Shown here piece after piece: positions 1-39,882 of a stretch of 64,000 nt of DNA (the first letter of the stretch is position 1; every line of letters starts with the position of its first letter). The translations under genes and the position numbers were made by a program. The notes below the pieces were generated by a model, which saw only the letters and a list, made by a program, of their open reading frames with translations, was not told where the DNA came from and did no database searches. Source of the DNA: Acidimicrobiaceae bacterium (lineage in GTDB: Bacteria > Actinomycetota > Acidimicrobiia > Acidimicrobiales > RAAP-2); NCBI GenBank assembly GCA_003132205.1, contig PKWY01000048.1, positions 74,605 through 138,604 on the forward strand, in the 5' to 3' direction.

Positions 1-1950
1 CTGCCGCTATCGACCGGCATGGTCGACTCACGCCGCGACGGCATCGAGACCATCGAGGCGATCCGCCGCATCAAGGCCGAGCTGCCCGGAGTGCGCACGA
101 TCCTCGGCCTGTCCAACATCTCCTTCGGCCTCAATCCCGCCGCCCGTCAAGTCCTCAACAGCGTCTTCCTGCACGAATGCGCCGAGGCGGGCCTGGACGC
201 CGCGATCGTGCACGCCTCGAAGATCCTGCCGCTGCATCGGGTCGACGAGAAGGTCCGCCGGGTCTGCCTCGATCTCATCTACGACCGAAGAAGCGACGAC
301 TACGACCCGCTGAGCGAGCTGCTTCGCATATTCGAAGGCGTGTCGACTTCGTCATCGAGCGGCCCCGCCCTCGATGACCTGCCGCTCAACGAGCGCCTGC
401 GCCAGCGAATCATCGAAGGCGCTCGGGTCGGGCTCGAGACGGACCTCGAAGAGGCGATGTCCGGCGGCATGTCGCCGCTCGAGATCGTCAACGAGATCCT
501 GCTTGACGGTATGCGCGAAGTCGGCGACCTCTTCGCCACCGGCGACATGCAGCTCCCCTTCGTCCTGCAGAGCGCTGAGACAATGAAGTCGGCCGTGGCC
601 TACCTCGAGCCGCGCATGGAAAAGAGCGACCAGGGTGGGCGCGGACGCGTCGTGCTCGCGACCGTGAAGGGTGACGTGCACGACATCGGCAAGAACCTCG
701 TGGACATCATCTTGACCAACAACGGCTACGAGGTCGTGAACCTCGGCATCAAGGTGGGCGTCAACGAGATGCTGAACGCGGTCGAAGAGCACAAGGCGGA
801 CGCCCTGGGCATGAGCGGGCTGCTCGTGAAGTCGACCCTCATCATGCGCGAGAACCTCGAGCTCATGAACGAGCGGGGCATGGCGGACGTTCCGGTCCTG
901 CTCGGCGGCGCCGCCTTGACGCGCACCTACGTCGAGCGCGATCTTCGCGAGATCTACCAGGGACGGGTCTTCTACGGCAAGGACGCCTTCGAGGGGCTGC
1001 GCGTGCTCGACCGTCTGGGCGAGCTTCGAAAGTCCGGCGAAGAGGATCCGAACTTCGGGCGCGAGATCTCCGAGCGCAAGGTCTTTCGACGCATCAAGGG
1101 GCAGTCCGGCGAGGCCTTCGAGGGCCTGCCCAGCCGCAGTCCCGACGTGGACGAGGACAATCCCATCTTCGTGCCGCCCTTCCTGGGCAGCCGTGTCGCG
1201 AAGGGCATGTCCGTCGACGAGATCAGCGACTACCTGAACCTCACGGCGCTTTTTCGCAACCAGTGGGGGTTTCGCCCGGAGAATGGCGAGGACGACCCCG
1301 CCTTCAAGGAACGCGTCAGCGCGACGCTTCGAGAGCAGTTGGCCATTGCGAAGGAAGAGGACCTGCTCATTCCCCAGGTCGTATGGGGCCACTTCCCCGT
1401 TGCGTCGGATGGCAACGACCTGATCGTCTATTCCGACGACACCCGCCAGAGCGAGCGCACGCGATTCGTCTTTCCCCGCCAGCACCAGACTCCCCACCTC
1501 TGCATCGCCGACTTCTTTCGCTCCGTCGAGAGCCCCGACCACGACTACGCCAGCTTCATGCTCGTGACGATGGGACCGCGCGTGTCCGAACGCTGCCAGG
1601 AGCTCTTCGCGCAGAACCGCTACACCGACTACCTGATGCTGCACGGACTCGGAGTCGAGATGGCCGAGGCGCTCGCCGAGATGTGGCACAAGCGCATCCG
1701 TCAGGAGCTGGGCTTCGCCGAGCAGGACGGTCCCACCCTGACCGGCCTCTTTCGCCAGCAATACCGGGGCGGGCGCTACTCGTGGGGCTACCCCGCGTGT
1801 CCGGACCTCACCGATAACGCCAAGGTGGCCGAGCTCCTCGAGGCGAGCCGCATCGGCGTCAACGTTTCAGAGGGATTCCAGCTCCACCCCGAACAGACGA
1901 CGGACGCCATCATCTGCCACCACCCGATGGCGAAGTACTTCGTCGCCTAG
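1..1950 (+). CDS. metH: Cobalamin-dependent methionine synthase, C-terminal part (B12-binding and AdoMet activation domains), truncated by window start
   Basis: Frame is open from base 1; B12 motif VKGDVHDIGKNLV and a C-terminal activation domain are visible. Confidence 0.93.
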   Translation: MPLSTGMVDSRRDGIETIEAIRRIKAELPGVRTILGLSNISFGLNPAARQVLNSVFLHECAEAGLDAAIVHASKILPLHRVDEKVRRVCLDLIYDRRSDDYDPLSELLRIFEGVSTSSSSGPALDDLPLNERLRQRIIEGARVGLETDLEEAMSGGMSPLEIVNEILLDGMREVGDLFATGDMQLPFVLQSAETMKSAVAYLEPRMEKSDQGGRGRVVLATVKGDVHDIGKNLVDIILTNNGYEVVNLGIKVGVNEMLNAVEEHKADALGMSGLLVKSTLIMRENLELMNERGMADVPVLLGGAALTRTYVERDLREIYQGRVFYGKDAFEGLRVLDRLGELRKSGEEDPNFGREISERKVFRRIKGQSGEAFEGLPSRSPDVDEDNPIFVPPFLGSRVAKGMSVDEISDYLNLTALFRNQWGFRPENGEDDPAFKERVSATLREQLAIAKEEDLLIPQVVWGHFPVASDGNDLIVYSDDTRQSERTRFVFPRQHQTPHLCIADFFRSVESPDHDYASFMLVTMGPRVSERCQELFAQNRYTDYLMLHGLGVEMAEALAEMWHKRIRQELGFAEQDGPTLTGLFRQQYRGGRYSWGYPACPDLTDNAKVAELLEASRIGVNVSEGFQLHPEQTTDAIICHHPMAKYFVA

Positions 1951-1957
1951 AGACCCG

Positions 1958-3583
1958 TCAGCGCCTGGTGGGCGCCGCGACCGGCGTGGCATCGCTCAAC
2001 GCCTCCCTGGCGTGGTAGCTCGACCTGGTGAGCGGCGAGGACTGGACGTGCTTCAGGCCTAGTCGTTCGCCCTTCTTCGCGAGTTCATCGAACTCGGCCG
2101 GTGCCCACCATCGTGAAACCGGGAGGTGCTGCTCGGTGGGCCGCAGATACTGGCCGATGGTCGCGATCGAAACCCCGACGGCCGCGAGATCGGCGAGGGT
2201 CTCTTCCACTTCCTCCGGAGTCTCGCCCAGGCCGACCATCATGCCGGACTTGGTCGTGAGTCCCGACGCGGCGCTTCTCGCGAGCACGGTGAGCGATCGC
2301 AGGTAGCCGGCGCTCGGGCGCACGGCACGCTGGAGGCGGGCCACGGTTTCGATGTTGTGGTTGACGACGTCGGGACGCGAGTCGAGGATCATGGCCAGCG
2401 AACCGGGAACACCCTTCAGGTCGCTGATGAGCACCTCCACGTTGGTCACGGGCGAACGCTCTCGAATGGCCCGGACCGTCGCGGCGATGGCTCCGGCTCC
2501 GCCGTCGTCGAGATCGTCGCGGGCCACGCAGGTGATGACGGCGTGGCTCAGCTTCAGGCGCACGACCGCCTCGGCGACGCGTTCGGGCTCGGTCGGATCG
2601 AGCGCAAGCGGCTTGCGGGTGTCGATGAGGCAGAAGCCGCAGGCCCGGGTGCACCGCTCGCCGTTCACCATGAAGGTGGCGGTTCCGTCGGCCCAGCACT
2701 CGAAGATGTTGGGGCATCCCGCCTCTTCGCAGACCGTCACCAGACGAAGGTCCTGGGTGAGCGTGCGAAGCGACTGGTACTCCTCGCCCATCCGGGCTTC
2801 GACGCGCAGCCATTCGGGCTTGCGCGAGTGCAGCGAGACTCCCGCATCGGGGTCGACGCCGGCCTTTCGAAGTCGGCGCAGCAGCGGCCGCTCGCTCGAG
2901 GTCGTCGACGCACTGCGGTCGACGCGGGCGACCGAGCCGGGTCCGCCGAGACGGGCGGTCAACTCGTCGCCAAGTCGCTCTTCGACCTCCAGCAGGGTGA
3001 CGTGGAGCCCCAACGACCGCAGGGACGCGACGGGCTTGTCGGGGATGCCGCACGGCACTATCGCGGCGAAGCCCGAAAGGTCGATGTCGACGTTGAGCGC
3101 CACACCGTGCAGGGTTCGCCGAGCGCCGTTCTCGTTGCGCTCGGTGCGCACGCCCACCGCCGCAATCTTTGCGGGCCGACCCTCGAGATGCGCCCAGACT
3201 CCGGGGTATCCGTCGAGGCGGCCGACGTCGCCGAGGCGGCGCTCGGGGTCAACTCCCTTGACGGTCGCTATGACGGCGTCCTCCAGGTGGGTGACGTGGG
3301 TCTTACCGGCCGACGGATCGTCCGCCACGGTCACGATCGCCCAGGCGACCACCTGGCCGGGGGCGTGATAGGTCACGTCGCCGCCACGGTCCGCGTCGAT
3401 GACGACGGCGTTGAGCTCTGCCGGCGGGACCAGGAAATGCTCCTCCTGGGTGCGGATGCCACGGGTATACGTTGGCGGATGCTCGAACAATAGGACGTAG
3501 TCGTCGCCGGACTGCATGAGCGCGCGCTGGAAGTCGTTGGCCTCGGCGAAGGAGATCCGCCCCAGGTGGCGTCGGCGGAGCAT
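1958..3583 (-). CDS. Fused octanoyltransferase (LipB) and lipoyl synthase (LipA)
   Basis: One 541-aa ORF; LipB part has GGDVTYHAPGQ, PAKIAAVGVR and PCGI; LipA part has CEEAGCPNIFEC, CTRACGFC and C-terminal RSSYHA. Confidence 0.92.
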   Translation of the reverse strand: MLRRRHLGRISFAEANDFQRALMQSGDDYVLLFEHPPTYTRGIRTQEEHFLVPPAELNAVVIDADRGGDVTYHAPGQVVAWAIVTVADDPSAGKTHVTHLEDAVIATVKGVDPERRLGDVGRLDGYPGVWAHLEGRPAKIAAVGVRTERNENGARRTLHGVALNVDIDLSGFAAIVPCGIPDKPVASLRSLGLHVTLLEVEERLGDELTARLGGPGSVARVDRSASTTSSERPLLRRLRKAGVDPDAGVSLHSRKPEWLRVEARMGEEYQSLRTLTQDLRLVTVCEEAGCPNIFECWADGTATFMVNGERCTRACGFCLIDTRKPLALDPTEPERVAEAVVRLKLSHAVITCVARDDLDDGGAGAIAATVRAIRERSPVTNVEVLISDLKGVPGSLAMILDSRPDVVNHNIETVARLQRAVRPSAGYLRSLTVLARSAASGLTTKSGMMVGLGETPEEVEETLADLAAVGVSIATIGQYLRPTEQHLPVSRWWAPAEFDELAKKGERLGLKHVQSSPLTRSSYHAREALSDATPVAAPTRR

Positions 3584-37222: not shown

Positions 37223-38242
37223 CTAGGAAAGCGTGTTCCATTCGTCGTCGGTCAACCTGCCCAGTCGCTCCATTGAGCTCGGGGCCACGTCCAGAGCGAT
37301 TCGCACTGAGTCGATGTACGAGACGTGGTCCAGTCCCAAACGACGCCAAGGCTGAAAGAGCACCCTCGATGGCGTCTGGTTCGAGTAGATGCCCTGGACC
37401 AGGACTCCCTCGTTGGATGCGCCCACGACCACCGCGGGGCGGGCCTTGGACTTCTGTTCGGGCTGATCCGGATCGACTGCGTCGAAGGGAACCTCGACGA
37501 GGGCGACCGAGCCGACGACGGGGTGATCGGGGCTGAAGACGGCCAGTTCGCCCGGCGTGAGAGCGACCCGGCGGCGAGTGACCTGGACTACCGGGATCTC
37601 ACCAACTGGTGGACTCATCACGCGCGCGGGCTTGGGCTTCTCAACCCGCTTGGCCTTCACCGGGCGGGCGGGACGAGTTGACGTCACACTCTGCTTCTTC
37701 CTCTTCTCCTCCTCACGGCGCGCGCGGCGCTGCTCGCGAACCTCGGCATCGACTTCCTTGGGAACGAGGAGCGATGCAGGAGCTGCGACCTCGGGCAGGG
37801 GCGGCAGCTGGAGCTCGGTACGTTCCTCGAGCAGGCGGCGGCAGTGCGCCGCCGCCGGGAATTCCTCGCCAATGGCGAAGGTGAGCAGAGCGACGATGTC
37901 GTCGTTCGTCGCACCGTTAGCGAGCATCTGGTCGACCGCGGCGCTCAATTGATCGTACGAAGGGGAATCAGCGTGGTCGCCGAGCGCCTCGACCACCTGC
38001 TCAAGAGGCGCCAGAGCGAGCAGTTCCAGTATCCCCTTCACCGCCGCGATGGGGGCGCTCGATGCGAAGGTCGTGACGTCGCGCCGCTGCTGAAGGGTAC
38101 GAAGTGGCATTCCCACCACCGCCTGGATCTTGTTGTTTCCCTTCAGATTGAGCGAGTCAACCGTGGCGAGAACGGTGGCGTCGTCGATCTTCAAGAGGCC
38201 GCGACGAATCATCTCGGTCGTGCTGCTGGTACTGGTGGACAT
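37223..38242 (-). CDS. Protein with a long N-terminal region and a C-terminal PemK/MazF-like domain
   Basis: C-terminus VGSVALVEVPFD...KSKARPAVVVGASNEGVLVQGIYSNQ...GLDHVSYIDS...LGRLTDDEWNTL matches the PemK/MazF pattern. Confidence 0.7.
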   Translation of the reverse strand: MSTSTSSTTEMIRRGLLKIDDATVLATVDSLNLKGNNKIQAVVGMPLRTLQQRRDVTTFASSAPIAAVKGILELLALAPLEQVVEALGDHADSPSYDQLSAAVDQMLANGATNDDIVALLTFAIGEEFPAAAHCRRLLEERTELQLPPLPEVAAPASLLVPKEVDAEVREQRRARREEEKRKKQSVTSTRPARPVKAKRVEKPKPARVMSPPVGEIPVVQVTRRRVALTPGELAVFSPDHPVVGSVALVEVPFDAVDPDQPEQKSKARPAVVVGASNEGVLVQGIYSNQTPSRVLFQPWRRLGLDHVSYIDSVRIALDVAPSSMERLGRLTDDEWNTLS

Positions 38243-38248
38243 TGGTTC

Positions 38249-39391
38249 CTACTTCAAGAGGTACTTGGAAATGACTACCCGCTGCACCTGGTTGGTTCCC
38301 TCATAGATCTGCGTAATCTTCGCGTCGCGCATGTAGCGCTCGACCGGGAACTCCTTGGTGAAGCCGTAGCCACCCAGTAACTGTACGGCATCGGTCGCCA
38401 CGCTCATCGCGGTGTCGGACGCGAACGACTTGGCCGCCGCTCCCAGGTACGTCAACTGATTGTCGGGGTCACCAGTGTCGATCGCCGCGCACGCCCGGTA
38501 CACCAACGCGCGCGCCGCCTCGGTGCGAATCGCCATGTCGGCCAGCATGAATCGCAGGCCCTGCAGCTCGGAAATCGGTGCGCCGAAGGCCTTGCGGCCC
38601 TTCATGTAATTGCCCGCGTAGTCGATCGAGGCCTGGGCGATCCCCACCGCCTGGGCGCCGATGGTCGGGCGCGACCGGTCGAGCGTGTGCATCGCGATCT
38701 TGAAGCCTTCACCCTCGGCGCCGATGCGGTGCGAAGCAGGCACGCGCACGTCGTTGAAGACCACCTCACCCGTGGGCGAAGCTCGAAGACCCATCTTGTC
38801 CTCGTGCCCGGGGAACTCCACTCCCCAACCCTTCTCAACCAGGAAGCACGTGATGCCGTGGCTGCGCGCTTCGGGATTCGTGGTCGCGAAGACTGTGTAG
38901 GTATCCGAGACGCCGGAGTTCGTGATCCAGTGCTTGGAGCCGTTCAAGATGTAGTCGTCACCGTCTCTCACGGCGCTGCAGCGCATTGACGCTACGTCCG
39001 ATCCGGCGTCGGCCTCTGAGAGGCAGTAACTCGACTGGATCTCACCGGCGGCGACCCTGGGCAGGTACTCGCGCTTGATCTCCTCGCTGGCGAAGTTCAT
39101 GACCGGCAGCATGCCGAGCTTTGAGATCAGCACCGTGACCGAAGTCGACGCGCACCCGCGCGCAAGCTCCTCGGCCATGATCGCCTGGGTCACCATGTCG
39201 GCGCCCGCGCCGCCGTAGGCCTCGGGAATGCCCAGCGACGGAAGCTCCATCTCGACGCACGCGTCGAAACTCTCCTGAGGGAATGTCTGCTCGCGGTCGT
39301 GGTGAGCAGCGTGCGGGGCGATGCGCTCGTCGACGAAACTGCGCATCACGTTTCGAAAAGCGCGCTGTTCGCTGTTCAGGTCAAAACTCAT
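38249..39391 (-). CDS. Acyl-CoA dehydrogenase
   Basis: YCLSEADAGSDVASMRCSA, LLGGYGFTKEFPVERYMRDAKITQIYEGTNQVQR. Confidence 0.95.
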   Translation of the reverse strand: MSFDLNSEQRAFRNVMRSFVDERIAPHAAHHDREQTFPQESFDACVEMELPSLGIPEAYGGAGADMVTQAIMAEELARGCASTSVTVLISKLGMLPVMNFASEEIKREYLPRVAAGEIQSSYCLSEADAGSDVASMRCSAVRDGDDYILNGSKHWITNSGVSDTYTVFATTNPEARSHGITCFLVEKGWGVEFPGHEDKMGLRASPTGEVVFNDVRVPASHRIGAEGEGFKIAMHTLDRSRPTIGAQAVGIAQASIDYAGNYMKGRKAFGAPISELQGLRFMLADMAIRTEAARALVYRACAAIDTGDPDNQLTYLGAAAKSFASDTAMSVATDAVQLLGGYGFTKEFPVERYMRDAKITQIYEGTNQVQRVVISKYLLK

Positions 39392-39414: not shown

Positions 39415-39882
39415 CTATAGAGAAGAGTTCGTCGGCAGCAGGATCTGCTCATCGCTCACGGCGTCGACGAAGCGGCGTTGCGCAACGTAACTGTGGGCCA
39501 GTCCGGCGAAGGGGACACAACGTTGATGGCTGACAACGTCGGCTTCACGGAGTCTGAAGATGTCCAAGGTGATCAGCACGTCACCAAGAATCGGGCCCCG
39601 GCCCGCGAGGCTGGCCCGCTTGGCGGCTACGAGTGCGATACCGGTTTCAACATCATGACGGTCGTGCTCGTGGGCGAACTTCAACTTGGCGACCTCACGC
39701 TGAGCAATGGTGAGCGCAAACCCCTCCCCTGGCGCAGGTGTTCCGTGGCCAGCGCCACCCGATCGGGTGGGCGAACGTTGGAGCCCGGGCTTTGGGATCC
39801 TGGCGAGTTCTGGAGTGGCGGTCGTCATGGTGCGGCGAACCTCGCCCGCTGCAGGGACTGGGGAAAACGTCGGTTGGGTCAC
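39415..39882 (-). CDS. Hypothetical protein
   Basis: 155-aa ORF on the operon strand between ACAD and ilvE; no recognised motif. Confidence 0.42.
   Translation of the reverse strand: MTQPTFSPVPAAGEVRRTMTTATPELARIPKPGLQRSPTRSGGAGHGTPAPGEGFALTIAQREVAKLKFAHEHDRHDVETGIALVAAKRASLAGRGPILGDVLITLDIFRLREADVVSHQRCVPFAGLAHSYVAQRRFVDAVSDEQILLPTNSSL

Follow-up and report, generated by a model that had tools for sequence, protein, structure and literature searches.

The 339-amino-acid open reading frame at positions 37223-38242 of the window, i.e. the complete 64,000-nucleotide stretch of DNA analysed here, is a genuine gene on the minus strand of an uncultured soil actinobacterium and a core gene of its Acidimicrobiia genus, vertically inherited at a conserved locus. 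The encoded protein joins a helical N-terminal domain through a charged linker to a C-terminal domain for which sequence profiles and structure models together confirm a PemK/MazF fold (Table 1). Annotations usually treat a PemK/MazF domain as a toxin; this one sits in a core gene without an antitoxin, and the adjoining helical domain also exists alone. We favour, at roughly even confidence, a model according to which a core protein retains the PemK barrel as a module that engages RNA, the toxin fold being reused and not forming part of a toxin-antitoxin module. If the isolated barrel were harmless or selective, it would clearly exemplify the domestication of a toxin fold for everyday RNA work, and would caution against scoring lone PemK matches as toxin-antitoxin systems.

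Table 1. Features of the two-domain gene and its upstream neighbour, in window coordinates
Feature	Position	Strand	Basis
Two-domain gene, 339 aa	37223..38242	-	N-terminal helical domain, basic linker and PemK/MazF-fold domain; full-length relatives in genus; purifying selection
N-terminal helical domain, residues 1-150	37793..38242	-	AlphaFold helices; also alone in other proteins
Charged linker, residues 151-222	37577..37792	-	Mostly low pLDDT; a single helix predicted (166-185)
C-terminal PemK/MazF-fold domain, residues 223-339	37226..37576	-	PF02452 in 4/20 relatives, hhalign, Foldseek
K266-A-R268-P269, counterpart of the Lys-x-Arg-Pro loop in the MazF active site	37436..37447	-	hhalign register; conservation in genus
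Y286-S287, at or adjoining the catalytic Thr of MazF (B. subtilis T48, E. coli T52)	37382..37387	-	One-residue uncertainty in the register
Acyl-CoA dehydrogenase gene, directly upstream (context)	38249..39391	-	Pfam

Fold and active-site residues of the C-terminal domain

Relatives of the 339-aa protein are present in 36 other genomes of the 61-genome relatives set, 32 of them from the same genus; the ORF is conserved at 42-94% identity, and the named carriers are Acidimicrobiaceae or actinobacterial MAGs. dN/dS is mostly ~0.1-0.2 for the N domain and the C domain alike, and in most pairs the linker has the highest dN of the three parts.

The 339-aa sequence alone has no match in Pfam, PF02452 included, nor among the PADLOC defence families, and other searches returned noise only. 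PF02452 is matched by four of 20 C-domain relatives (best E-value 2.5e-4), and a broadened alignment compared with the PDB gives MazF chains in nine of ten rows, all with weak E-values. Against 27 canonical MazFs taken from the same order, the broadened C-domain profile scores 95.6% probability in hhalign (P 1.1e-8); the N-terminal domain, run as a control against these MazFs, reaches 0.1%. The AlphaFold model of the full protein, built from seven sequences, comprises an all-helical N domain (residues 8-140), followed by a linker modelled at low confidence and by a beta barrel, and Foldseek with this model ranks Kid (1m1f) first at a probability of 0.99. Folded alone, the C domain retrieves MazF/Kid structures in all 20 of the top PDB matches (probability 0.89-1.00), with TM-scores mostly ~0.5-0.6, so that the structure search, which had been named beforehand as the test able to refute a PemK/MazF assignment, did return this fold. 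As the Foldseek E-values lie above 0.01, the case rests on sequence profile, fold and motif register agreeing, and the C domain joins the PF02452 superfamily by fold and profile homology, not by a single-sequence match. The sequence-only reading had placed a PemK/MazF layout in the last ~100 residues, preceded by ~230 residues of helical part and charged linker; the layout holds, the PemK-like part being longer at ~117 residues, and the model refines the preceding region to helices at residues 8-140 and a low-confidence charged linker of ~75 residues. Over 20 sequences, 13 residues of the C domain are invariant.

In MazF, Arg25/Arg29 is the general acid/base and Thr48/Thr52 stabilises the transition state (PMC10893535; PMC11394972). 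The Lys and Arg of the K-x-R-P motif, the Arg corresponding to catalytic R25/R29, are kept in all 32 genus members. The position of the MazF Thr is occupied by Tyr in 30 of 32 and by Ser in the other two, the next residue being Ser or Thr in 32/32, with a register uncertain by one: the Thr of many MazFs stands one column later in the profile alignment, so that it cannot be concluded that the Thr was lost. In MazF-mt3, the exchange T49A halves the activity and K23A/R24A/R25A nearly abolishes it. The C-terminal helix of MazF, whose counterpart in MazF-mt3 contributes to the dimer interface (PMC11394972), has no equivalent: hhalign covers template columns 18-102 of 120, the last ~18 MazF residues are missing, and the C-domain model ends in a helix of five residues.

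Locus and inheritance

The gene starts 6 bp past the stop of a gene on the same strand that Pfam identifies as an acyl-CoA dehydrogenase, and a gap of 102 bp separates its end from a phosphodiester-glycosidase-like gene. No antitoxin ORF fits either gap; among same-strand candidates of at least 25 aa, the sole frame reaching the downstream gap is a 37-aa TTG frame, which is unconvincing. An overlooked antitoxin ORF was thus rejected for both gaps, and the sequence-only reading proved correct on the spacing to the dehydrogenase as well as on the absence of an apparent small antitoxin ORF. In relatives, too, no antitoxin is found beside the gene, the neighbours being the dehydrogenase and a convergent gene: in ~14 of 30 loci of the genus the acyl-CoA dehydrogenase is close by or immediately upstream, and in 26 of the 30 it and/or one particular convergent gene adjoin.

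The N domain is present in 86 and the PemK domain in 82 of 100 genus genomes, and in 55 and 52, respectively, of the 60 good assemblies. The plasmid and phage collections searched hold no homologue. This spread over 86/100 genomes, the conserved locus and the lack of a plasmid or phage match rule out a mobile toxin-antitoxin module; neither the adjacent antitoxin gene nor the patchy mobile distribution of type II toxin-antitoxin systems is observed. The fused layout of N and PemK domains also occurs in other families and in other orders of the class.

The source genome also encodes a canonical MazF (L001:1091-1860 on G000:C57), the only protein encoded there that passes the PF02452 cut-off; an antitoxin-like ORF overlaps its start by 7 nt and a TnpB-like ORF adjoins it, whereas the 339-aa gene leaves no space for an antitoxin. 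In genome G231, a gene with N and PemK domains (L142:596-1651, minus strand) is divergent from one for a 158-aa PemK-like protein (1737-2210, plus strand), with no antitoxin seen, and genome G023 contains, in addition to the full gene, a second, weaker PemK-like match in a 161-aa frame (G023:C54:21240-21536). Within the window, a 155-aa ORF (39415-39882, minus strand) has IlvE on one side and the acyl-CoA dehydrogenase gene on the other; it is 42-96% identical across the genus, conserved in position and without a Pfam match.

The helical N-terminal domain

The helical block of residues 8-140 is modelled with pLDDT mostly 88-96, lower at residues 31-50, and the linker falls below 50 at residues 153-163 and 187-224. 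Conserved motifs of the N domain are LGDHADxPTxEQL and FPAAxxCRxLL. The domain has no match in Pfam, PADLOC or the PDB, and hits to troponin C, CheA and Bcl-xL, obtained when its identity was sought in Pfam, NCBIfam and the PDB, were dismissed as noise. A helix-turn-helix at 'AVVGMPLRTLQQR', indicated by weak Xre-like and NtrC matches, was discarded as well, the model showing residues 37-39 at low confidence and no helix directly before this segment; among antitoxin-like families the weak Xre-like-HTH match (best E-value 0.0034, in 3 of 13) is the only one. This helical domain, found only in relatives of the source bacterium, is an undescribed Acidimicrobiia domain.

Without PemK and ending in a basic tail, the N domain occurs in the examined genomes of another family, f7, as well as in some f53 genomes. 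Small genomes of the genus itself, such as G013, G114, G374 and G022, also carry N-only versions; at the orthologous locus of G022 the gene ends after the linker, ~36 bp separate it from its convergent neighbour, and the dehydrogenase has kept its place directly upstream. N-only genes are under purifying selection (dN/dS ~0.06-0.38), and a complete C-only version of the gene was not seen in the genus. On the N-domain tree, six switches between the N-only and the N+PemK state are needed, with good branch support for at least two of them; they may be repeated losses of PemK or more than one gain. Six is the minimum for this labelling, since G022 (row L030) was scored as N+PemK although PemK is missing from its gene. 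Of the two domains, N is the more stable and more durable one. Neighbours of the N-only f7 genes, by eye ABC-transporter ATPase-like and Ada/Ogt-like, were considered as a clue to function and are uninformative. In G047 (L131:4585-7383, minus strand) the N domain forms the start of a 933-aa protein and is followed by TPR matches and an unassigned C-terminal tail (ILFVGGNETQKQYREAIEAELEL...).

Possible roles of the fused protein

Core-gene inheritance and the absence of an antitoxin make the protein more like a toxin fold in other use than a toxin. From sequence inspection two options had been proposed, an RNase that inhibits itself through a regulator in cis or reuse of the PemK fold in a non-toxin role; the vertical inheritance, the lack of mobile homologues and the occurrence of the N domain alone favour the reuse. 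According to this model, a chromosomal, vertically inherited protein would act outside any toxin-antitoxin module; its helical N domain, the part kept longest, would carry the lineage-specific function, and the C-terminal PemK/MazF barrel would be an accessory RNA-engaging module, kin of MazF-like proteins without antitoxin. The flexible basic linker would tether the barrel, which could then act on RNA wherever the N domain docks. The barrel would probably bind RNA and cut little or only selectively, and the N domain may be a docking or scaffold part, its function being a guess since the fold is not recognisable. Against the reuse count the invariant Lys and Arg and the Ser/Thr at or beside the catalytic Thr position, which are compatible with a working nuclease, and the lack of a complete C-only version in the genus, as expected if the barrel needed the N domain for safety.

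The intact Lys-x-Arg and the missing C-only version would also suit a self-inhibited endoribonuclease whose N domain and linker form an antitoxin in cis, released by a signal, for instance proteolysis, stress or a phage product, a reading we regard as somewhat unlikely. It has a precedent in EzeT, a zeta toxin with its antitoxin domain in cis on one polypeptide (PMC4826407; PMC4803016), which like the 339-aa protein combines an N-terminal domain with a fused toxin fold at the C-terminus and has no separate antitoxin, and the recurrence of the fused layout beyond the family and order also speaks for it. However, the folds are unrelated, and the N domain studied here is not restricted to toxin-bearing proteins: its persistence without PemK, under purifying selection in f7 and in several genus members, is unexpected for a pure antitoxin and argues against N being merely a tethered one, and the core-gene status at a conserved locus and the lack of an antitoxin-like family match beyond the weak Xre-like-HTH hit weigh in the same direction. 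The Tyr in place of the MazF Thr, if the hhalign alignment is right, and the missing last MazF helix point instead to a catalytically dead module binding nucleic acids or proteins. We consider this unlikely, as the register is ambiguous by one residue, T49A in MazF-mt3 only halves activity, and the Lys and Arg are kept, residues whose combined exchange there leaves almost none. A degenerate toxin remnant without function would explain why several genus genomes have no PemK domain, but is highly improbable given the purifying selection on the C domain and its invariant residues. Going beyond the favoured reuse of the barrel on a core protein, it is conceivable, though doubtful, that the helical domain of Acidimicrobiia serves core RNA metabolism in docking or control and has had different effectors attached to it, the PemK barrel or the TPR-rich region and C-terminal tail of the G047 protein, by which a MazF-type RNase would have become a regulated housekeeping enzyme and not a toxin.

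Compared with known systems, the C domain has the SH3-like barrel, the Lys-x-Arg-Pro loop and the Ser/Thr-rich strand end in common with the MazF/PemK/Kid toxins (PF02452), and differs from them in the missing C-terminal helix and in the Tyr at or adjoining the catalytic Thr; the whole protein differs in having a 220-residue N-terminal extension, no antitoxin gene and core-gene inheritance. MazF-mx of Myxococcus xanthus, a solitary MazF described as a toxin gene acting in developmental lysis (PMC4803016), likewise has no cognate mazE gene, and that description mentions no N-terminal extension such as the 339-aa protein has. An orphan PemK_toxin is also on a published list, Rv2405 of M. tuberculosis with 189 aa (PMC6504116). 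As a solitary PemK (Rv2405) and a fused toxin (EzeT) are on record, neither is new in kind; the new elements are the N domain, its fusion to PemK and its persistence without PemK, and our literature search for PemK with Acidimicrobiia returned nothing beyond a genome description. The C-domain profile also reaches solitary PemK-like proteins of ~150-230 aa across Actinomycetota, which share the PemK-like domain without partner antitoxin and probably include Rv2405; in contrast to the 339-aa protein they have no helical N domain, and in 25/25 the catalytic position is taken by Thr or Ser and never by Tyr. In a further arrangement, an ORF of genome G328 (L066, 451-1938) places a PemK-like domain in a 496-aa protein, several stretches of which look transmembrane.
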